Assembly (NCBI RefSeq): GCF_026151205.1
Contig: NC_087082.1
Location: 11,417,997-11,481,996, forward strand
DNA from: Bolinopsis microptera
Lineage: Eukaryota; Ctenophora; Tentaculata; Lobata; Bolinopsidae
Reading direction: 5' to 3'
DNA length: 64,000 bases
The translations under genes were made by a program, and so were the position numbers. This document shows positions 31,801 through 63,770 of the stretch, piece by piece (the first letter of the stretch is position 1; the number at the start of each line of letters is the position of its first letter). Under the pieces are notes generated by a model. That model worked only from the letters and a program-made list of their open reading frames with translations, had not been told where the DNA came from and did not search any database.

Positions 31801-34800
31801 TGTCTGGACCGACCTGCGGCCGCACTCATTCTTTTTTAATATCTATTATTTTTATTTCCCGTACCTCACATAATTATGACATCATGACTCACAGATCTTT
31901 GGTTTCCGAGCAGATTCGGAGCGCGAATTCCTAAATTCCGCGAACAGATCAATTAAATAATAAAGGGGCAAGATGACCGAGGCAAGATGACCGATCTGTT
32001 GTTCATGTTCACGTTTGGTATGTGTTTTAGCTGGCAGGTAGCAATCATGAATTCACGTTTAGCGATAAGAAAATATCGCGCCATGACTGCTTTTTTCGAG
32101 CTTATCCACTTCTAATGTGACTGAAGCTTTGGGAAATCGCGATAGTTTTGATTAATAAACTATCTTAGAATCGTAAAATATCTCGTTTTTATTAGCATTC
32201 CAAGTATTTGCTATAAATATTTTACTTTATGTTTATGTAATATACATAAATGTCCAGAATGAGGATTACTTGATTCCATTTTTGGCATTATGGAAAACTA
32301 ATACGAAAAAACTTAACGGTAAATAAACCCATACAAAATTTCGAAGAAATAAATTATAAAACGCTTAAAATATGATATATAATTGTATAATCCATTGGAA
32401 GGCTTCTTGCCCGGATTGTAAGTAACGTTTAGTAAAAAAATCATTTTTCAAAATTTTCGAAAAAGAAAATAATTTTTTTTCGAATGTGCGTATATATTCT
32501 CAAAAATTTTTTTCAATGCCTCAGATCTTACAGTTGTAATATATACTTTCATAATATGAAGTCAAATCCCGGGTCCCGGCAAAAAAGGTTTTGGTGTATG
32601 TCCCCTCAAAGTCCATCTCGATAAGGGGTTTATTTGTACATCGTTCCCACCAGTAGTTCTGTAACCTAACATTGAAAAATGTAGATATATCTCCCATGCT
32701 CCTTAACCTTAAGTTTTAATACTTTCAACACTACTATATAACAAATAATTTGAGGTATCGAATTATTACAAAACAGTTGTTTAGTTTTTTTAAGAACTGA
32801 CAATTTGTCACTTGTCCCTTCGGTCCTTGATCTTTCTAGCAGGGTTTTTGACATGGAAAAGATGAAGTTGGACATGAAAAAGATGGAGGAACAATTGGAA
32901 AAGATAAACCGCAATACTCTTTTGTTTAAAGGTAAGAAAGATGATAATGACAATAAGATTAAGGTAACTATTCAATCAGCGATATTTGATGACCTTACGT
33001 CTGCAAATAAAAAAATGGAGATGTTTGTTGTTATCCAGGATTTGTACACTTTCTCCAAGAATGCTCTTCAACTAACACAAACAGTTTTAGGAACAAAACA
33101 AGCCACAACTACTACAGTACAGGAATCACCAGATTTCAAGGAAATTATAAAGACACAGCTCAAAGAGGTACTAGCAGAAGTACTGCCCACATTACTACCA
33201 GATTTATTGAATACAGTGGTAGCAACACTACCCAAAGAAAAGAAAGCAAAAGAAGAAACTATGCTTGCAGAAAAACACACACTCACAGTTGAGAAAAAGA
33301 CCACAGACTCTGAAGACGCAGAACCTATCACAATTGATGATGAAAAGGAAATGAAAGGTTCCCTTAAAATAAACCCAGTGAAGAATTTTAGAGTGTCCGG
33401 AAGTACTGCGACTTTCAAGTTCAGTACCAAGGATCAACTTAACAAAGCTGAGACGGTATTTAAAAGTCAAGATAAATACAAGGTATCGAAAAAGTCTGAA
33501 CCAGGAAAGAAATTGGACCCCAAACTGTCTATTCGGAATATTCCCTCTGACATCACAAACAAGGAGACATTGCTAGAGAAACTTTTGGAAAAGAATGAAA
33601 TACTGAAGTCCTCTTCTGGAAAAGACGATGCAGTAAAAGTGGTTTTCTTCGATGAGATTGAAAAATCGGCTGTCATCCGTGTCACTGCAGCAATGCGTGA
33701 GTTAATCAGACAAAACAGAGATTATATACACATTGACCTCAGGGAACACCATGTCACAGACCGAATTCATGTCATTCAATGTTATCATTGCCAGGAATTT
33801 GGTCACATGGCCAACTCCATGTACCGTAAAGCCAAAGATAAAGACCCAACATGTTTCTTCTGTGCAGGAAGCCACAAGTCGAAAGATTGTAACAACAAGA
33901 GTGAAAATAATGTAAAAAAGATAAAGTGCTCTAACTGCGCCAAAAGTAGTAAACACTCGGAGAAGAACTCAGCAAAGACCCATAAAGCCTCTGATAACCT
34001 ATGTCCCTCGTATGTAAGAGAACGGACTGGAATAATGAATAGGACAGCAGGATGTGAGAATGCAAAAAACTGGTACATACAGAAGACAAAGGAGACCAAA
34101 CTACGCCTAGGAAGAGTTTAAGGATTGGAACGTTCAATGTTAGATCCTTAGTGAACAAAACAGTCGGAGTGTTAGAGCATCTTCGAGAAGTTGATTGTGA
34201 CATCTGTTTTGTACAAGAAACCTTCTTTCGTGATGGAAACACAGCTAAGATAAAGGAGATCAAAGACCTTGGTTGGAATATACTCTCGGATCCACGAAAA
34301 CACAGAGGAGGAGGAGGTATAGCTATGCTATTTCGTGATGTGCTCCAGTTAAAGTGTAATAGTAAGGTCATGAAGTACAAATCCTTCCAAGTGATGGAAT
34401 CACTGCTACAATCTCAACAAGATATTGTGAGACTTGTGAACTTGTATCGGCCTCCTTATACCAAGAAGGCTCGGTACACGGAGTGTGCCTTTCTAGAAGA
34501 ATTCGAAGACTACCTTAAAGACCTCACAGTCAAACCTGGTTTCCCCATCATTGCTGGAGATTTCAACTTTCACATGGAAAAGCCTGAAGAACACTACCCA
34601 AAGAAGCTCTACCAACTCCTGGAGGAGTATGATCTATACCAACACGTTCCCCTTGAGCCAACCCATGACCAAGGTGGAACCCTAGATCTTGTAGTGACTA
34701 ACCGATCCTTCAAGGAAAAACTGACTTCATTTGAAATCTGTCCCTCTAGAACCAAATCTGACCACTTCCTTGTCCTCTTCGATGCAGACATCAAGACAAA

Positions 34801-37800
34801 GACCAAAGAAGACGCAAAATTCATGAACTACAGAAACTTTAATTTAAATGATACAGAACAGTTTAAAGAAGATATTTTAATTTCAAAACTGACAAACTTC
34901 CCTAAAGACATGTCTCCGAATGATGCTGTTGTCCTTTACAACACTGTGCTCACTCAGTTAATGGATAAACACTGTCCTTACATAAAAAAGAAGATTACTA
35001 AGAAGCCAATGCCCTGGTTAGACCTGGAACTTCGTATTCTCAGGCGAAAGAGAAGAACTGCTGAACGTGCGTGGAGAAAAGATAAAGTAGACTATATAGA
35101 CAGTACAAGATCTGAGTACCTGAGATCGGATTATGTTAAGCTAAGAGATGAGTTTTCCCGACTAGAGTTTGTCAAAAGATGCGCTCACCACAAAACCTCT
35201 CTTAGGTCCTCTTCAGGGGATACTAAAGCGTTGTACAAAAAAGTCAACAGGCTTTTAGGAAATGACACCCAAAACCTTCCAAACTACAAGGATCCTGTGA
35301 AACTGTCAGAAGATTTCAAAGATTTCTTCGCTGAAAAGGTTGCAACCATCAGACAAGCCAGTGAGAAGGAAGGAAAAGACAAAGACAAAGACAAAGACAA
35401 AGACAAAGACAAAGACAAAGACAAAGACAAAGACAAAGACAAAGACAAAGACAAAGATAAAGACAAAGACAAAGATATAAACAAAGACAAAGACAAAGAC
35501 AAAGACAAAGACAAAGACAAAGACAAAGACAAAGACAAAGACAAAGACAAAGACAAAGACAAAGACAAAGACAAAGACAAAGACAAAGATCCTGTTCTTG
35601 ACAAAGACTGCATCTTTGATAATTTCTCTGAGATAACAGCTGATGAACTCAAAGACCTGGTATCAAAGATGTCCAACAAGTTCTGCTGCTTGGATCCGAT
35701 CCCAGCATTTCTCTTAAAAAACTGTGTTGATGAACTAACACCTTTTATACTCCACGTCTTGAACTCATCCTTGAAGACTGGAGTTTTTCCCTCAGATATG
35801 AAGAAAGCAGTCATCAAGCCGACTTTGAAGAAGGAAAATGCTGATGTTGATATTCTCAGTAACTATCGACCAGTGTCTAACCTCTCTGCCTTCTCTAAGA
35901 TCCTAGAGAGAATTGTACTAAACCAGCTTAATGTCCATCTAACTAACCATAGCCTTTACTCAGAAGTCCAATCTGGATATCGCCCTAATCATAGCTGTGA
36001 AACATTACTTGTTAGAATGTGTGATGATCTAAACAAAGAAATTGAAGCTGGGAATGTTGTTATAGTTGTACTTCTCGACTTAAGTGCAGCATTTGATACC
36101 ATTGACCACACAGTCTTGTTGGAAAAGCTTATGAAGGACTATGGAATTACTGGAAGTGCACTGCAATGGATAAAGTCCTACCTTGAGAAAAGACACTTCT
36201 GTGTTAAGATTGATGATACTCTTTCAACTTTCTTGGAGCTTCTGTTTGGAGTTCCCCAGGGATCACTCTTGGGGCCTATTCTTTTCATCCTTTATATCAA
36301 AGCTCTCCAGAAAATTGCGGCCAAATATGGTCTTGATATACAGCTCTATGCAGATGATTCTCAACTGTACATCTCATTTAAACCAAACCGTGTGGTACAG
36401 TTCATTGATGTCCAAGACAGAACAAACAAATGTCTTGCAGAGATAAAAGCATGGATGGTGAACAACTACATGAAACTGAACGAAACAAAGACAGAACTAC
36501 TGGTGTTAGGAAAGAGCCATGTTCTAAAAAAGTGTGAACTCAGTGTCAGACTGCAATTTGGAAGCACTGAAATTCTGCCTACGGAGTGTAAAGGAGACAG
36601 CTGGAAGAGTCTGGGTGTCAAATTTGACGAAACTCTAAATATGGAAAGACAGATCAATAATGTCAAAAGGAAATGCAGCTGGACAATGATGAACCTAAGA
36701 ACCATTGGTCGTTACCTGGATGAAGGCATTAAATTGATGCTGGTGAAACAACTGGTCATATCTAAATTAGACTACTGTAATTCTCTTTACATGAATCTAC
36801 CCAAGACCAGATTGAACAAACTTAGATCAACCCTTAATGGGGCAGTTCGTTTCATCTACAACATAGAAGAGAGGACCACGGACTTGGTTCCCTTCTATAA
36901 GAAGGCCCACATACTCCCTATAGACCAACGAATCTTCTTCAAAGTTTGTCTTTTAACCCACAAATCAGTTCACGGTACTGCACCTGATTACCTCAAAGCA
37001 CTACTGGATGTGGATGTAGTGGATATAGAGCTTTCAAACACCATGACCAGGTCGAAAAGACCGGATGACCATCTCATGCTCAAGATACCAAAGAATAAAA
37101 GATCCAAAGTTGATGACAGACGTTTTTCAAGCCATGCACCGGTTGCATGGAACTCTCTTCCGCTGATGTTGAGAAGTATTACTGATACCAACTGTTTCAA
37201 GCGAATGTTAAAGAATCATTTATATAATCAGTTCTGATGTTTTTTCTTTCCATTGTCTTCACTTTGCAAGACACGTTGGCTTTTATTTTTTACCGCACTC
37301 CATTTTATGTCTTGATGTCTCTTTCTTGATTGATTATGTCACTGTACCTTTATTTTACCTACATGTATTGTATGGTTTCTGCTTCTATTTAGTTTAGTGT
37401 GGTTTACAATAAAAGATGTTTTAATTTTGTCTTTACCTTATGACGAGTTATACTTTAGTTCACTTTTTACGCATTTGCTCACATCACTCACAGTCAGCCG
37501 CTCTGACATGGTTAACCACCTTCCTTGTGTTGTTGGTTAATCATATGAGCGGGATATAAATACCTCATTTCATTTCATTTCATTTCATTTCATTTCATTT
37601 CATGTGTATTGTGTATGTGATTTTATGCTATATCTGTTATAGGAGGAAGCAACGTTATTCGGAAGATTATTTGTTACTGTGTGTAACTCGAATTCGTTGA
37701 TATAATACCAAGTATTTTCATTAAATCAATTATCATGTTGATATCATTGTTGATATCAACACGATACGATTTACATTATCGGACCTTATTTGACCGGACA

Positions 37801-46639: not shown

Positions 46640-49600
46640 CTAGCCGGCTACTCAACCTCCAGCTCCTCAACCTCCAGCTCCTCAACCTCCAGCTCCTCAA
46701 CCTCCAGCTCCTCAACCTCCAGCTCCTCAACCTCCAGCTCCTCAACCTCCAGCTCCTCAACCTGCTCCTGCACAGCAACCTGTTACTGATCAACAACCTG
46801 CTCCCAATTCTCCTCAACCTCCTGCTCAGCAAGCTGCTCCTGGACACCAACCTGCTACTGATCAGCAACCTGCTCCCAATGCTGCTGCTCTGCCTACTGG
46901 TCGCAGAACGAGGCGGATATTTTCTTTAGACGGGGTTATAGCGGAATACGACGCCGTTGTGCAGCTATAGTTAGGGCAAGAGTTGATTTTTCTGTGAACA
47001 AATTCGTAACAAAGGTTTGTCTACAGGAATGTGTTGTCCATAGTCCCAGGAACCACAAAAAAAACCTTCCAGCTGAAACTTTTGGGCAAACATTTTTATA
47101 GTAATTTTTCTCCAGGAACCCATACGCCCCACCCCTAATATTGGTTATTCGGCTCCCGAAGGTCTTGAGATCTCCATAGGGGGTGCAAAATGACCGCAAT
47201 GGCCACATTATGGCAGGCGTATGATAGTTTCAGAATAGAACAATTGGGGCTTTATTTTTCGAAATAGATGGAATTTTTCGAAATTTTTCGAAATTTTATT
47301 GAAATTTCGAAAAAAAATACACCAAATTATTTTTAACGCTTATTTCAAATCTATTTCAAAACTCATCTACAAATAACAAATACAGTTAATCTAAAATGTG
47401 TATTCTCAGTAAATACCATGACAATTATTAATACACAGTTAATATTAATCAAAATTCGCTTGTTCTTCAGGTTCATAATGTCTAATGTTTGTGCAGTTCA
47501 AACCATGGCATCGTCCACAAGCTGGCAAACAATTGAAGCCATATTTCCCACAGGAACATCTGAAAGTCAAACAGGCCTGTTGCTCATCGACAGAACAGTT
47601 ACAACATATTTAAAGGTTCAAAATAGACTCTGGAGCAATTATAGCTTTTGTTGCAACTGGTTCGTAAGTGCCACCAGGAGCCAATTTCCAGCCGTAGTCA
47701 AGGGGATTCAGACTGTCAGCGTTAAGCATGACCCAGTTATGGTACTGTAAGTAAGCTCTAAGGATGTGCTCCGTTGCTGAAGCTATTGTTGGAGGTAGCC
47801 TATTCGGATTGAGACTCTTTTTCGCTACCATCCTATTGTATGCTAGGAATCTCAAAGCAGAAAGAGTCTTTGTCTTGTCACCATAAATGTACTGCAAGAA
47901 ACAGAGGCCTGCCTCAATAATCTTTTCTTTTGATTCTCTCACCGAAAGTAATGTTGCCAACTGACCTTGCTCATCAAAGGTGAGAGCTTTCTTTAGCACT
48001 TTAACCTTGCTAAAACCAAACAGTCCACTGACGCTATCACAACCTGAAATACTATGAATTAGAAGAAATATCTCCTTTTCTTTATGATCTAGATGACTTG
48101 ATATTTCTTTGATTGAATATGCACCCTTCTTCGTTGTTAGATAAATATCATTGTGATGGTCACTGTTGAAATGATGTACTAATAGACAAACTATATCGGT
48201 ATCCTCTGCCTTCAATTCAACATCGCCAAGGAATGACATTTCCAATGTTTTCTTTGTAATTAAAGTATCAGCATCGTTACAAGCTCTGATCACTTCAATA
48301 CCATTTACAGTAAAAATGCTTGAGATAAGGTCGATCAGTTCTTTTTTGTTATTGTTGTTGCTCAGAAATGTTGTTTTGGTGACAGTACAAAAGGTGGATT
48401 TCTTTACAGCAATATTAGCACAGAACGCTTTTACTCTCCTCTTGTGCTCGTGATCTTTAGTAGAAGGCTCATATCCATCAAAAATCACAGTAACTTCCCG
48501 ATTTTTAGGGATAAGCTTCAAGTACTCCATTGCTACCTCACCATAATTGTCACACCCTTTAAATGAGCTTAGTTGGTGAATTAGCCAACCTCCATCAATG
48601 ATTAGTGGGATCGTGAAGCTGCAAGATTTAAGTATAGATTGGTTTATGTTTTTGAGGTAGCTACCAAGAGCAGCCTTATTAGATTTCCTCATCATCTGAT
48701 ATTGATCAAATAAGCTCATCGGCACCACAGTTAACTCGTATGTTAGGCATTCCTCTATTGAAGTCTCTCTATCAGCAACCAAGACTAGACGGTTAAAACA
48801 CTTCAACGGATCGACTGCAACGCTTTTATTATTCACTTTAACCTGCTTTCTTAGTTGTGTCAAGTTCTTTGCTTTACCTTTGATACTTATCTTATCGATG
48901 AATGTCAACCCATCTAGCTCACGTTGAAGGACAGCCCCAACGGCCAAACATTCCTCGGGATTCACCTCATCGTTCCCAGACTGTGATATAAGACCAGTCG
49001 AAAAAGATATTAACTTAGTCTTATCTTCGGATTCTGTAAAGTCGACAGTAACTTTAAACCAAGTTAATCATTTTCCAAATACATCACAGTTTTTCTTGAT
49101 TGATGACTTGGTAAGATCTGAGTGGATGGCAGCTTTAGTTGGTACTCCTTGCTTCGATGAATTAGCTAATGAATCTCTAAAAGACTGATTTATTAAAGCC
49201 ATCTGATTCAGGGTGGCCACCCATAACTTGTGAGCGGACTCACGATTACGCATCCTTCCACTTGTTAATCCACCACTAGATTTAGCTGCCCTCATAAGAC
49301 TCTGCTCTATGGAGAGGTCAGTCCACACCCCGGCCCACTCGTGGTCGTTGTAACAAACCGTGTGAAGCCCAGTTACTTTAAAGGTCTTTAAAAGCGCCCC
49401 ATACTTGACTTCAAAAATAGCATCCTGCTCCAAATACAGTCTTAAAGCTTTTGCATACTGTCCCCTCCCAGCTGCTGCGAAGTAGGGCAGCATCAAAGCT
49501 ACTGCTGATAAATGCATATTGTAGTCGTGCAACCTCTCTGCTCTTATGAAATCCTTTACTAGTGTTATCATGTTGTGGTAAGTAACCCATAGAGCTGCTG

Positions 49601-50870
49601 TTCTACTGTTGGAAAACAGGTTCTTTAGAAGCAGAGTTATTTTCTCTGATAGATCCTGAATAGATTTAGTCTTAAAGTTAACACCTAGATTTTCGTTCAC
49701 ACATTTGTTGATGTAACCTTCCAAGTCTACTAGTTCATCGTCGCAAACTTCTTCCTCTATAATGAAACAACAAAGAGCGGCGTCGATCAGAAAGTGGGCT
49801 CTCGACGCTTTATAGTAAGATCCTCCATCCGATATATGCGTGACGTCTCCAGGATACACGAGTTTGATGAGCTCCTCTAAACCCGAGTCTGCTATTATAT
49901 AGCCTATGCAGCCAAGAAAACTCTTGAGAGTGTGGAAGCCCCCAACCCTGGCCACAATAGGCATCCCAGTTTCCAGTACTATTTGGGTGGCCTTAATCCA
50001 CAATGGCAAATCGATTATGATTATCATCGGCTCTCTGTAGAGTGTAGGATAACTTAAGACATTCAACCAGAGTAGTATATACCGTCGAATAGCTGTCTGG
50101 GGGTTGGTCAAGTTTTCTCTCATCACAATTTGTTCTTATCTGCTGTTGTTTGTTAGTTAACCTTGATATTTGTTAATTGAAGTTATTTCCCGAGTAAGAT
50201 TTGAAATAAGCGTTAAAAATAATTTGGTGTATTTTTTTTCGAAATTTCAATAAAATTTCGAAAAAAATTTCGAAAAATTCCATTTATTTCAAAAAATAAA
50301 GCCCCAATCGTTCTGAAACTATCATTCGCCTGCCATAATGTGGCCATTGCGGTCATTTTGCACCCCCTGTGGATATCTCAAGACCTTCGGGAGCCGAATA
50401 ACCAATATTAGGGGTGGGGCGTATGGGTTCCTGGAGAAAAATGCCTATAAAAATTTTTGCCCAAAAGTTTCAGCTGGACGGTTTTTTTTGTGGTTCCTGG
50501 GACTATGGACAACACATTCCTGTAGACAAACCTTTGTTACGAATTTGTTCACAGATTGACCCATAAACAGCAATTCTTGCCCTAACTACTAGTCAACTCT
50601 GGTCTCTCAAAGTCTGCCGCTCTGGAGCAGATACACATTTCTCGGAGTCACTTCTCAAGAAAGCGATGTATCGCTGAAGCAGCAAAAGTTGACCTACCAG
50701 GTGTCCAACACGCACTGCTGCAACTACGAGACGTCAGACTTCCTAGTGTTTACACCTTCGCAAACGAGATCTGCAACCGTAATCTTGCCACTCTTAGGAC
50801 CCTTTGTACCCAAGGCGTCGTCCTAGCGCCCAAAAACAATTACACTGCTCCTCCACCACGAAGAAATTGA
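46640..50870 (+). CDS. Mobile-element ORF with HTH-like region, split by insertion
   Basis: Left part 46640-46967: Pro/Gln-rich repeats (PQPPAPQPPAP) from a 15-bp CTCCAGCTCCTCAAC array, then TGRRTRRIFSLDGVIAEYDA. Right part 50592-50870: VNSGLSKSAALEQIHISR, then HFSRKRCIAEAAKVDLPG and ..., ending PPPRRN-stop. If the inserted 3621-bp element and one CTA copy are ignored, the two parts join in frame with no gap. The segment LVNSGLSKSAALEQIH looks like a helix-turn-helix DNA-binding region. No ATG is visible at the left end, where the frame enters the minisatellite. Family unknown to me; perhaps an accessory DNA-binding protein of the outer foldback element. Confidence 0.6.
46968..50588. mobile_element. 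3.6-kb TIR element encoding a GGFH + XPG/FEN1-like protein
   Basis: Terminal inverted repeats of about 380-430 bp starting TAGTTAGGGCAAG / CTTGCCCTAACTA. The direct repeat CTA flanks it (46965-46967, 50589-50591). The host reading frame (46640-50870) is restored exactly by excision, which fixes the borders. The short frames in both terminal repeats (MWPLRSFCTP ...) are mirror copies of non-coding TIR. The only substantial gene is the minus-strand one at 47610-50123. Confidence 0.88.
47610..50123 (-). CDS. GGFH-domain / XPG-FEN1-like nuclease protein, one in-frame TGA
   Basis: Two open stretches, 50123-49071 (351 aa) and 49067-47610, are in the same frame and separated only by TGA at 49068-49070 (codon 352). 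The N-terminal half has IIIIDLPLWIKATQIV, VARVGGFHTLKSFLG, YYKASRAHFLIDAALC, WTDLSIEQSLMRAA and GGLTSGRMRN. The C-terminal half has an XPG/PIN-like acidic skeleton: LIIDGGWLIH, TVIFDGYEPSTKDHEHKRR, CNDADTLITKK, KAEDTDIVCLL and HSISGCDSVSGLFG. I recall uncharacterised multicopy invertebrate proteins with the same pair of halves. Role in transposition is inferred from its being the only gene between the TIRs. The N-terminal half might be a diverged RNase H-like transposase (D38 ... E of IEQS), which is speculation. The TGA may be a mutation or a recoded stop. Confidence 0.8.
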
Positions 50871-55988: not shown

Positions 55989-57800
55989 ATGGTCGACGCC
56001 GCGCTCAACTTATTGGATCAGCCAACCACCCACCCATCTCACGAGACGAATCCTTCATCAGATGACAAGGGGCTACCAGGTAGTGACCCACTCACTACCT
56101 CTTCAAAGACCTGCCTGGTACCCCCACAACAAGACGGTACGTACGATAAAACTTTTAGGACGGCACTATTATCTCCTAAAACAAGTTTAGAGCTCTTCTC
56201 AACCCTGACAGAAGAACAACTTAAACATGAATCGGAATACCATTCAACAATCTGTGGTTTTACAGATCATACAATAGGAGTAGGGATGCTAACTAGGGAT
56301 AGAAAGGCACATGCCTATGAACATTTAAAGCAACACCTAGAGCAACACCTAACTAGCAATGTAGATGATATTTCTAAAAATTTGCATCAGTTCACTTCCG
56401 TAACCTCCCTCATTTCCGAGAAACTTCAAGAAGCAGAAAGCCATCATGCGAGGATTATTGAACAACTAACAGAGTCGATAGCGGCAGCGAAACAGTGTAT
56501 CACGGACATGTTAGCTTATGAAAGCGCCGCCAACTCTAGAAGAACTCCTCCATCAACCCCACCGCCATCACCAGCACAGCTCAACACGGTGACGTTACCA
56601 GCTATACCAGGTGCTGTTGAACCGTGTGATATAAACTTTGACCATTTAGACCTGGAGACAGTTTGCCACGGAGTACATTTTACTAAGATAGGGCATCGAC
56701 AGACAGCATTTTTTGGTAGAACAGAGTATCGTTATGGCAGAACAGTACACAAACCACTTGATATTCCCACGAATCACCCACTCCTTGAAATCATAGACTC
56801 AATCGCTCATCACACAGAAGACCCAACATTCACCACAGACAACATAACTTGCCTTCTTACTCGTTATGAGAACGGTAAATCTTCAATTCCCATGCACAGT
56901 GACAACGAAGCTTCCATCGTCAATCCCAGTAACATAATCACAGTCAGTCTCGGTGCTACCCGAACAATTGACTTCCGCAGCAAAATAGGACCTCTCACGA
57001 CACAATCCATACACCTCAAACACGGGCAGACTTATTGCATGTCAAGGTCCTCCCAGGACTTTTGGGAACATGGTATTAAAGCAGATCCCACAGCACAAGG
57101 CGAAAGACTATCACTAACTTTTCGCAGACTCTCAGCTCCCACCACACCACAGCATATACCACCAATCCGCCAATCTAGTAGACCAGAAACAGACCCGACT
57201 CCGATTCCAACGGAACGTGTTCTGCTATTGACGGATTCAATTCATTCAACCACACCCGTCAGCTTGTTTCCTACTCACTTGCCATGCACCAAGGAGACAA
57301 TGTACAAAATCACTGATCTTCACAAGTTTGAGCACCTATTCCCTCACATGAGTTACGTGGTGATCTCGGCAGGCATCAACGATTTGTCCAGGTATAATCA
57401 CCGTTCTTACTCGTTGTTTGATGTCGTGGCGAATGATCTGCGTACTTATTGTGAGAGATACCCAAACACCACATTCATCTTTAACTCCATAACACTAACC
57501 ACTTATCACTGGCTAAATCCAGAAATTCGTAGGTTTAACGAGTCTTTATTTATTTTAACCACGAAGGTTGAAAATCTATTGATGTTTGACTCGCATCAAA
57601 TATGCTTTGAGCTGATGAGGAAAAGGTGCACTATACTAGATCCAAATGGGAACGGTATTCATCTAACCTTAGCAGCCAAGAAAGGGATCGTTTCGCGTCT
57701 CCTGGAGTGCATCATTGAACTGGCCAGGCGAAGACCGACAGTAATCGAAGAGGTGTGGCCTTTAAGGGATGAGTTCCGATCTCTTTTGCCAATGCAGTAG
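55989..57800 (+). CDS. LINE ORF1 with AlkB-type dioxygenase and SGNH esterase
   Basis: 603 aa from ATG at 55989 (context ACCATGG). Residues 60-180: helical, coiled-coil-like (EHLKQHLEQHLTSNVDDISK). Residues 215-382: AlkB fold of the 2OG-Fe(II) superfamily, with a nucleotide-lid region (FFGRTEYRYG, 241-250), iron ligands H303 and D305 (MHSDNE), H361 (FWEHGI), and 2OG-binding R373/R379 in RLSLTFRR. Residues 408-585: SGNH hydrolase, block I TDSIH (S417), block III AGINDLS (N464), block V NGIHL (H558); the residue three before H558 is Asn555 where Asp is usual. Esterase domains in ORF1 are known from CR1-like LINEs; an AlkB domain in front of it is not something I know from them. ORF2 (58384) follows after 583 bp. 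Confidence 0.85.
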   Translation: MVDAALNLLDQPTTHPSHETNPSSDDKGLPGSDPLTTSSKTCLVPPQQDGTYDKTFRTALLSPKTSLELFSTLTEEQLKHESEYHSTICGFTDHTIGVGMLTRDRKAHAYEHLKQHLEQHLTSNVDDISKNLHQFTSVTSLISEKLQEAESHHARIIEQLTESIAAAKQCITDMLAYESAANSRRTPPSTPPPSPAQLNTVTLPAIPGAVEPCDINFDHLDLETVCHGVHFTKIGHRQTAFFGRTEYRYGRTVHKPLDIPTNHPLLEIIDSIAHHTEDPTFTTDNITCLLTRYENGKSSIPMHSDNEASIVNPSNIITVSLGATRTIDFRSKIGPLTTQSIHLKHGQTYCMSRSSQDFWEHGIKADPTAQGERLSLTFRRLSAPTTPQHIPPIRQSSRPETDPTPIPTERVLLLTDSIHSTTPVSLFPTHLPCTKETMYKITDLHKFEHLFPHMSYVVISAGINDLSRYNHRSYSLFDVVANDLRTYCERYPNTTFIFNSITLTTYHWLNPEIRRFNESLFILTTKVENLLMFDSHQICFELMRKRCTILDPNGNGIHLTLAAKKGIVSRLLECIIELARRRPTVIEEVWPLRDEFRSLLPMQ

Positions 57801-58383: not shown

Positions 58384-60063
58384 ATGTGCAAAGAGTCTTG
58401 TAGATGTAGATTATGTTCTAAAAAATGTTTAGAACGTAAAGATCCGCTAAAATGCAGCCTTTGTAACGGTATTTTTCATCGGAAATGTGCTAATCTTGAA
58501 CCAAATGACGTAAATCGAATGAAATTAGACAATAGTCTCATAAACTGGTATTGTTTGGCATGTACTACTGACATATTTCCGTTTACTAATACTGATATTA
58601 CCACTCTAACTAATGAAAATTCGTGTAACACTTACATACCCTGTAGTACAGAAACAAAAGCTAAATCTAAAGTAAGTTTTGCCAGGGTGAGCTGCAAAAC
58701 TTGTAAAAAGCTGGGAAACAAATCAAAAATGGCGGTTTGCTGGATATGCGACGCTTATTCGCACAATAAATGCTCAGCGGGCGAGTTAGGATGCAAAAGC
58801 TGCACACGTGAATTGTTTCCTGGTTTCGAGGTATCACCTAGACAATTATACACCGTACACGGTAATTACGAGAATAGCGCAAAATTTAACCCATACCATA
58901 GAAACCATGACTCTAATTATATAGGTAATACTTTTGAAGAAAACAATGACTTAAACTTTAATCCATGGGACAACTGCTCAGATGTACTAAATAGCTGTAA
59001 ATACTACGAACCACGGCAAATCAACACGAGTAGGCCTTATGAATTTAAAGTACAATCTCTTAATATTCGATCTTTGAGCAAAGCAATCTCTAATATACGT
59101 GATGAAATTGAACAGCACCTAAAATTTGATGTTCTGTGTTTCAACGAAACAAACTGCACGGTTGTAAGTATGGCTTTTCAAGGAAAAGAATTAGAGTTAG
59201 AAGGCTTTCATCCCCCCTTTATTCAGGCTCCCGCAAGGGACTCTGGCAAGGGCGGTGGTCTAGTAACCTATGTAAACAAGAATCTCTGTGAATTATCTGA
59301 TGTCACTGCACGATCTGAATTATCTTATAGAGATGATCCAAACGTTGGCGAATTTCAGTTAATAGAGATAGCTCAAAATGGCCACAAAAACATCATACTA
59401 TGCAATATGTATCGGTCTCCCAGTGGTAATGTCCCCAGTTACTTAGAAAAATTGGAAAACACCCTAAAAGATTTGGCGCGACATAGCAACAAAAACGTAT
59501 TATTTCTAGGTGATACCAATATTAATCTATTAGAATATGGCGTAAATGACCATACTACTAAATATGTTGATATTTTTGCAGAGTATGGATTCGCACCAAC
59601 GATATCACGACCAACTCGTATTACTTGTCACAGTGCTACACTTATTGATCACATTTTCGTAAACCAATGCCATGCTATAACAAAGTCAGGCATTATAACT
59701 GAATCGCTATCTGATCACCTTGCCACATTTACCGGCATACTTCTCGACACTAATAGAATAGGAAATAAATTGAAAAATGAAACTTGTGAATCATCAAACC
59801 GAGTAATAAATGAAGAGAAAATCGCTCGTTTTGAGGAGAAAATAGCGTCTATTGATTGGAATTTTTTACACAACGTTGACGGGACAAATACAAAATTTGA
59901 AGCTTTTCACAATAGATATGAAGAAGTCTATAATGAGTGTTTCCAGTTGAAACATACTGTGGGTGGGAAGAAGGGGGGTTCATATTTCCAAGTTTCTATG
60001 ACTACTTTAGATGACGATGTCTTCTCCGGTGAGGTTGAAGCCAGGGCCCCAATTACAAAGTGA
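58384..60063 (+). CDS. LINE ORF2, truncated: PHD fingers + endonuclease
   Basis: 559 aa. Residues 6-60: PHD-type Cys4-His-Cys3 finger (CRLCSKKC, CSLCNGIFHRKC, WYCLAC). Second Cys/His finger at about 103-140 (CKTCKKLG, CWICDAYSHNKC, GCKSC). Endonuclease from about 220: VQSLNIRSL, DVLCFNETN, GGGLVTYV, NMYRSPSGN, FLGDTNINLL, LIDHIFVN, LSDHLATFTG; all catalytic-type residues are present. It would nick target DNA for target-primed reverse transcription, but the reverse transcriptase is missing: homology ends near 59965 and the frame runs into a 105-bp dispersed repeat (GSYFQVSMTT ... ARAPITK) and a stop. A broken, chimeric copy. Confidence 0.85.
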   Translation: MCKESCRCRLCSKKCLERKDPLKCSLCNGIFHRKCANLEPNDVNRMKLDNSLINWYCLACTTDIFPFTNTDITTLTNENSCNTYIPCSTETKAKSKVSFARVSCKTCKKLGNKSKMAVCWICDAYSHNKCSAGELGCKSCTRELFPGFEVSPRQLYTVHGNYENSAKFNPYHRNHDSNYIGNTFEENNDLNFNPWDNCSDVLNSCKYYEPRQINTSRPYEFKVQSLNIRSLSKAISNIRDEIEQHLKFDVLCFNETNCTVVSMAFQGKELELEGFHPPFIQAPARDSGKGGGLVTYVNKNLCELSDVTARSELSYRDDPNVGEFQLIEIAQNGHKNIILCNMYRSPSGNVPSYLEKLENTLKDLARHSNKNVLFLGDTNINLLEYGVNDHTTKYVDIFAEYGFAPTISRPTRITCHSATLIDHIFVNQCHAITKSGIITESLSDHLATFTGILLDTNRIGNKLKNETCESSNRVINEEKIARFEEKIASIDWNFLHNVDGTNTKFEAFHNRYEEVYNECFQLKHTVGGKKGGSYFQVSMTTLDDDVFSGEVEARAPITK

Positions 60064-60080
60064 CAACAGGTCAGCTGCCA
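59966..60080 (+). repeat. Dispersed repeat, copy 2 (also at 10993-11105)
   Basis: Plus-strand copy of the 105-bp repeat that truncates the LINE ORF2. It is followed by TTCATGTT and a 23-G run. Confidence 0.7.
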
Positions 60081-60098
60081 GACTGACCTGTTCATGTT

Positions 60099-62819: not shown

Positions 62820-63770
62820 TGGGTCTATAACATGTTTCCATACATTAAAGTTAAAACTTAAAATGCGGTCGAATCATTAATTAGCCTCATTTTGGCCTCC
62901 TACAAGAAGACTCTGCGATTTCTGAAATGTTGAGCTTGAAGAGGATGAATAAATTTTTATTGTTGACACATTAGATAGTCACAATACCGAACATGCTCGA
63001 AAATATACACAAAAGTATACTTGTTAGCCTCATTTCACCCTCTCACAAGGTGGTTAGCCTCATTTTCACCTCGAAAATTTGAAGCTATAATCCGACGGAA
63101 TTTCATGTGCATCATAGATATCAAGTAACTTGTGAGTTGTTAACCTGTTTCCGTACATTAAAGTTAAAATGCGGTCGAATTTTTTATTAGCCTCATTTTG
63201 GCCTCCTACAAGTAGACTCGGCGATTTCTGAAATGTTGAGTTTGAAGAGGATGAATCAATCTTTATTGTTGACGTATTAGATAGTCACAATACCGAACTA
63301 ACTCGAAAATATACACAAAAGTATACTTGTTAGCCTCATTTCACCCTCTCAAAAGGTGGTTAGCCTCATTTTCACCTCGAATATTTGAAGCTTAAATACC
63401 GATTAAATATAATCCCAAGGAATTTCATGTGCAACATGGATATCAAGTAACGTGTGAGCTGTTAACCTGTTTCCGTACATTAAAGTTAAAATGCGGTCGA
63501 ATTATTTATTAGCCTCATTTTGGCCTCCTACAAGTAGACTCGGCGATTTCTGAAATGTTGAGTTTGAAGAGGATGAATCAATCTTTATTGTTGACATATT
63601 AGATAGTCACAATACCGAACCAACTCGAAAATATACACAAAAGTATACTTGTTAGCCTCATTTCACCCTCTCAAAAGGTGGTTAGCCTCATTTTCACCTC
63701 GAATATTTAAAGCTTAGATCTCGGTCAAGTATAATCACTATGGATTATACTTGCAACTTGGATATCATGG
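62820..63770. repeat. About 310-320 bp tandem repeat, three copies
   Basis: GCGGTCGAAT recurs at 62865, 63171 and 63493, with the same order of words between (TTAGCCTCATTTTGGCCTCC, GATTTCTGAAATGTTGAG, CAATACCGAAC, GTTAGCCTCATTTCACCCTC). The short word TTAGCCTCA occurs about ten times. No coding potential. 63771 to the window end shows nothing else. Confidence 0.85.

Follow-up and report, generated by a model that had tools for sequence, protein, structure and literature searches.

The question raised by a locus on contig NC_087082.1 of the ctenophore Bolinopsis microptera is why a long interspersed nuclear element (LINE) should carry, inside its first open reading frame (ORF1), a domain of the nucleic-acid demethylase family AlkB. 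In the 64,000-nucleotide stretch analyzed here (positions 11,417,997 to 11,481,996 of the contig; hereafter, the window), ORF1 occupies 55989..57800 of the plus strand, on which all parts of the element lie, and encodes a protein of 603 amino acids with, in order, a disordered N-terminal region, a helix or coiled coil, an AlkB domain, a linker, and an SGNH-fold domain. When the window was shuffled 50 times by mononucleotides, the longest stop-free run was 206 codons, so that this frame is about three times as long. A single intact LINE ORF1 with a complete AlkB iron and 2-oxoglutarate site fused to an SGNH-fold domain is what the original prediction, made from the letters of the window, had described; it is confirmed, and many related proteins have the same arrangement. 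The ORF1 architecture is real and conserved and, as far as could be searched, undescribed: it varies the plan of esterase-type LINEs by having a complete ALKBH2/3-like site next to a remodelled SGNH domain.

A protein search with ORF1 returned 64 proteins at E-values up to 1e-5, all with PF13532. The AlkB domain, a 2-oxoglutarate- and Fe(II)-dependent dioxygenase of ALKBH2/3-like type, was delimited at residues 203-383 (56595..57137) from Pfam, PDB matches, and the predicted fold; a double-stranded beta helix is predicted for it, and the AlkB fold of the original prediction thus stands. The HxD...H iron ligands are found in H303-S-D305-N-E307 (56895..56909; the His and Asp, together with a conserved Glu) and at H361 (57069..57071), while R373 and R379 (57105..57125) are the two 2-oxoglutarate-binding arginines. 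In an alignment of 64 sequences (the window copy and the 64 matches, without P0065, whose match is confined to AlkB), H303, D305, H361, and R379 are each present in 64/64, R373 in 63/64, and E307, which we take to match the base-contacting acid of ALKBH2/3, in 62/64. Y247 and Y249 (56727..56735) align with Tyr141 and Tyr143 of the base-binding loop of ALKBH3 (numbers assigned by motif), and these aromatic residues are invariant among the aligned sequences covering each of them (61/61 and 62/62, respectively). When the family profile was compared with PDB sequences, ALKBH3 ranked first (3.9e-28) and ALKBH2 second (5.7e-24), the N6-methyladenine (6mA) demethylase NMAD-1 matched weakly (0.004), and ALKBH5 and FTO were absent from the 38 matches at E-values up to 0.01. 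In the structure comparison, DNA-bound ALKBH2 and ALKBH3 were nearest and ALKBH5 scored clearly lower. Both by sequence and by predicted fold, the domain is closest to ALKBH3/ALKBH2 and further from ALKBH5, an eraser of N6-methyladenosine (m6A).

The relatives range from 84% down to 21% identity to the window copy, and those named as animal are proteins of the ctenophore Mnemiopsis leidyi; one named as a Planctomycetes metagenome-assembled genome (P0019), on a contig of 1320 bases, is probably contamination. No relatives were confirmed in viral contigs and genome contigs, as expected for a eukaryotic element. For domain statistics we used an alignment (A2) of 62 sequences, comprising the window copy and 61 relatives, from which P0017, P0063, and P0065 were left out. 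A profile search matched 2OG-FeII_Oxy_2 in 62/62 sequences, and 25/62, each searched by itself, matched Lipase_GDSL_2. At least 85% of both domains is covered in 55 of the 62, the remainder being mostly partial sequences, and AlkB and SGNH follow each other in the same order in 54 of the 61 aligned relatives. A fusion private to this copy is thereby ruled out. Mean pairwise identity is 0.42 for AlkB, 0.39 for SGNH, and 0.20 for the coiled coil. Pairwise distances of the two domains are correlated (r = 0.79 in 55 sequences; 0.78 in 52, without three deep ones), exceeding all of 2000 permutations, which indicates that the two domains have travelled together. A single origin of the AlkB-SGNH fusion, in the ancestor of the family as sampled, is probable, and the fusion has persisted since then.

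The AlkB slice alone, used as query, gave seven matches and ten such slices gave 651, of which 120 were listed. A midpoint-rooted tree was built from 184 AlkB domains (7 of 191 sequences being dropped for short coverage), with the outside AlkBs drawn from the slice matches as listed. The family AlkBs form one branch of 74 tips (62 sequences from the ORF1 search or the window and 12 further AlkB-slice matches), within which a main branch of 64 tips has a support of 0.985. The other 110 AlkBs, where named, are mainly bacterial, along with one fungal and one giant-virus sequence. The AlkB domains of P0064, P0074, P0076, P0078, P0083, and P0084 form a sister group that branches deeply (support 0.826), in which P0064 represents a second type of AlkB-SGNH protein with an ordinary DxxH motif and a block II PG.

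The SGNH-hydrolase fold was located by profile and structure searches at residues 409-580 (57213..57728); the blocks are numbered below by the SGNH convention. S417 (57237..57239), at the position of the nucleophile, is present in 63/63 sequences, as are G462 and N464 of the block III motif G462-I-N464 (57372..57380; GxND), and the His of the block V motif N555-G-I-H558 (57651..57662) is kept in 61/62. Ser and His occur jointly in 59/62, so that the catalytic Ser, Asn, and His of a Type IV (esterase) ORF1 are present. The catalytic Asp of DxxH is missing from the window ORF1: position 555 is Asn in 49/62, Asp in 5/62 (P0039, P0053, P0061, P0062, and P0064), another residue in six, and a gap in two. 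Block II, located by spacing and alignment rather than by superposed structures, falls in residues 431-442 (57279..57314), and the oxyanion glycine expected there (G165 of ZfL2-1) is likewise missing. Glycine of any kind occurs in this region in only 5/62 members, with PG in P0062 and P0064 only; in most of the family, this copy included, the conserved pattern C-[IV]-K...[YF]-x-L stands in place of the oxyanion loop and Asn in place of Asp, while Ser, Asn, and His stay. The transposon-specific His191/Ser228 pair is also absent, the position of His191 (four before the Asn) being S460 here (Ser in 57/62, His in 1/62); Ser228 may correspond to S500 (Ser in 56/62), an uncertain assignment. The transposon-typical His is retained in P0062 and replaced by Met in P0064; P0061 has the Asp but lacks PG. 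Judged from these residues, the SGNH domain of two deep members comes close to an ordinary transposon esterase, and that of the main branch, including the window copy, is remodelled, possibly into a site for new chemistry or for binding. A standard SGNH esterase was rejected for the window copy because the block V Asp and block II Gly are gone, and the "CR1-type SGNH esterase" of the original prediction was too strong, given that most of the family lacks these two classical catalytic elements. The ZfL2-1 esterase (4c1b) was not among the best 50 structure matches listed, which is no evidence against a relationship.

In the N-terminal half of ORF1, a short conserved motif resembling FSPxTCLELLxxLxxEQL (residues 61-92; 56169..56264; mean pairwise identity 0.42) is followed, in the structure prediction, by a single long helix (residues 105-181; 56301..56531), a probable coiled coil for multimerisation. 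A coiled coil placed N-terminal to the SGNH-fold domain is a feature of Type IV ORF1. The ORF1 protein (ORF1p) is acidic, with an isoelectric point (pI) of 6.3, and has no stretch of 20 residues with at least seven Lys/Arg, hence neither a basic patch nor an arginine-rich stretch, in contrast to the strongly basic ZfL2-1 esterase (pI 10.8; PMC3905857). No RRM or CCHC domain was found in ORF1p.

Downstream, 583 bp after ORF1, lies the start of ORF2 (58384..60063), with an N-terminal PHD finger followed by an APE-type endonuclease (Exo_endo_phos in Pfam, 5.5e-12, residues 225-445 of ORF2), which is the mark of a LINE. ORF2 is 54% identical to Mnemiopsis P0017 over 357 amino acids; the match ends at 59979, and the remainder is repeat sequence. 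A short interspersed repeat (59962..60092), whose second copy at 11122-10986 is 91% identical, cuts ORF2 off before any reverse transcriptase (RT). A 12-base match, TACTGTGGGTGG, at 59955 and 60721 was considered as a target-site duplication flanking an insertion and rejected, as no continuation of ORF2 was seen by eye beyond it. The locus is the 5' part of a LINE of the PHD and APE-endonuclease type. Of the Mnemiopsis relatives, P0017 runs in frame from AlkB-SGNH into the LINE endonuclease, and P0063, of which P0062 is a part, carries a PHD at its N terminus along with AlkB and SGNH.

From the domains and their sites, their conservation and co-divergence, and the LINE endonuclease context, we infer a model to which we would give about an even chance, namely that this ORF1p is a self-assembling ribonucleoprotein (RNP) protein that has a remodelled SGNH domain and that uses an ALKBH2/3-like demethylase of its own to clean the RNA template or complementary DNA (cDNA). 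The long helix would multimerise ORF1p on or near the element RNA, and the AlkB domain, with Fe(II) and 2-oxoglutarate, would oxidatively strip N1-methyladenine and N3-methylcytosine (m1A and m3C) from the packaged RNA template, from single-stranded cDNA, or from both during target-primed reverse transcription. In its simplest form, the ORF1p coat would clean the template before and during that process, a possible benefit being that the element RNA stays fit for copying. An AlkB domain grips the strand and flips the base, so it could also be the RNA contact; since ORF1p has no RRM, CCHC, or arginine-rich stretch, it may double as the main nucleic-acid contact of the protein. The SGNH domain would derive from an ORF1 of the esterase type, with changes in the main branch that probably suit it to binding or to an atypical reaction. 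Methyl groups of m1A and m3C sit on the pairing face of the base and block reverse transcriptase. ALKBH3 removes both (PMC10816986). The most far-reaching form of this reading, at a probability of roughly 0.45, is that an ancient LINE lineage took an ALKBH2/3-type demethylase into its ORF1 for RNP-borne repair of RT-blocking m1A and m3C on its own RNA and cDNA.

Other uses of the same domain have to be weighed against template repair. The original prediction had offered both repair and the erasing of m6A or m1A marks. Epitranscriptomic evasion, in which AlkB would erase m6A or m1A from the element RNA and so spare it recognition or destruction by host readers, has a precedent in an orchid Ty3/gypsy element, for whose AlkB m6A demethylation has been measured (PMC9289625), and the AlkB of the window could also remove m1A. 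Nevertheless, the orchid protein is described as ALKBH5-like, whereas the domain here ranks with ALKBH3 and ALKBH2 in both sequence and structure scores, with ALKBH5 lower or absent; the m6A eraser was therefore lowered from first choice. Repair of RNA or DNA is the better supported part of the original proposal and the m6A eraser is without specific support, and we consider evasion unlikely. A slightly less likely use is structural, with AlkB serving mainly as a nucleic-acid-binding module in place of RRM or CCHC and catalysis being incidental. Esterase-type ORF1 proteins of RepBase have no known structural RNA-binding domain (PMC3905857), and an ORF1p devoid of a basic patch would need a binding module; pure binding, however, would not need iron and 2-oxoglutarate ligands that are (nearly) invariant across very divergent relatives, and the adjoining SGNH domain illustrates how members of this family can lose catalytic residues. 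Somewhat less probable again is action on DNA, by repair of the target site or single-stranded cDNA or by taking a methyl mark off chromatin DNA during insertion. DNA-bound ALKBH2 and ALKBH3 are the nearest structures, and the ORF2 PHD finger could aim the complex at modified chromatin, but the presumed role of ORF1 proteins is the packaging of RNA (PMC3905857) and the 6mA demethylase NMAD-1 is a weak match.

Several observations weigh against template repair by a LINE-encoded demethylase. Resemblance to ALKBH2/3 does not fix the substrate, and the loss of two classical catalytic elements from the SGNH domain warns that domains of ORF1p in this family can move away from the chemistry they started with. 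The branch of all family AlkBs has a support of just 0.784, compared with 0.985 for the main group, in a tree where no animal ALKBH2/3 was knowingly sampled. Most relatives are on short contigs and P0062 lies within P0063, and the figure of 64 therefore overstates the number of independent elements; P0065 matches through AlkB only and was excluded from the counts. The PHD finger of ORF2 (7.4e-5, 23.1 bits) is slightly under the Pfam cut-off of 24. No RT was found for this copy by tblastn in the 4 kb downstream, with the unrelated ORF2 of the other LINE of the window as the sole RT query; comparison with P0017 likewise gave none, and P0017 itself has no RT domain in Pfam. The link to reverse transcription thus depends on the endonuclease, on the PHD finger, and on a single gene model from Mnemiopsis, P0017, in which the junction between ORF1 and endonuclease may be an artefact of prediction. 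Because no RT was found, the window copy looks incomplete or dead. The missing RT could also suit an artefact or a host gene (i.e., a host ALKBH exon fused to a single copy, which the original prediction had named as a possible refutation, or a domesticated host gene). With both domains in the same order in most aligned relatives and a Mnemiopsis relative joined in frame to a LINE endonuclease, we regard this explanation as very improbable.

The window contains other features. A second, unrelated LINE lies at 32754-37237 on the plus strand, with an ORF1 of 455 amino acids carrying a weak CCHC knuckle (below cut-off) and an uninterrupted ORF2 of 1059 amino acids with endonuclease and RT (RVT_1, 3e-29), between which there is a long Lys-Asp simple repeat. 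On the minus strand, 47610-50135 holds two long frames (355 and 485 amino acids) in the same reading frame with a single stop codon between them and no Pfam match. Overlapping direct repeats at 62828-63767 are about 90% identical over 634 aligned bases.

Among known systems, the family is like the ZfL2-1 and CR1-type esterase ORF1 (Type IV) in that a coiled coil and then an SGNH-fold domain precede an ORF2 with APE endonuclease, but unlike it in having AlkB between coiled coil and SGNH and in the loss of the block V Asp, the block II Gly, and the transposon-typical His191 from most of its members. Esterase ORF1ps have been considered unique among ORF1ps in having an enzymatic function (Schneider and colleagues, PMC3905857), and the same paper reports esterases from many animal phyla, in CR1, RTEX, and Penelope-like elements (PMC3905857). 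A survey of 448 Jockey-superfamily elements distinguished ORF1 types with RRM, CCHC, PHD, coiled coil, and esterase, the last only in two vertebrate groups (PMC4120745), and its main text has no occurrence of "AlkB" or "oxygenase". No AlkB in a LINE ORF1 appeared among the literature matches listed, a scope that stops short of Repbase, Repbase Reports, and most subscription journals, and the orchid Ty3/gypsy element (Gypsy_Pa_2799, PMC9289625) was the sole retrotransposon AlkB among them. Like the window family, that element is a retrotransposon with its own AlkB. The orchid AlkB, from Phalaenopsis, is a separate extra ORF of a long terminal repeat element, an ALKBH5-like m6A eraser described as recent (PMC9289625), whereas the window family is a LINE with an ALKBH2/3-like AlkB inside ORF1 and very divergent relatives; the two are probably independent captures. 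AlkBs of plant RNA viruses and other riboviruses are likewise carried by parasitic replicons, and structural matches were found in BFVD, but those AlkBs are in replicase polyproteins and have no LINE context. Human ALKBH3 and ALKBH2, in turn, are 23-29% identical to the AlkB of the window, which differs from them in sitting in a retrotransposon ORF1 and on a branch of its own apart from the 110 sampled AlkBs.

If this far-reaching reading is true, the ORF1 protein combines two enzyme folds and the element is, as far as could be searched, the first LINE known with its own nucleic-acid demethylase. AlkB aids tRNA sequencing by clearing methyl groups that stop reverse transcriptase. It is a laboratory tool that facilitates such sequencing (PMC7968990), and an element that depends on reverse transcription appears to have come upon this solution in nature. 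The family and the orchid gypsy AlkB jointly suggest that retrotransposons have captured AlkB enzymes more than once. Of the parts of LINEs, ORF1 proteins are among those poorly understood, and the conservation of a demethylase in one of them suggests that selection on these elements really does have to deal with methylation of the template, as lesions or as marks, a point that is directly testable with a single catalytic mutant.
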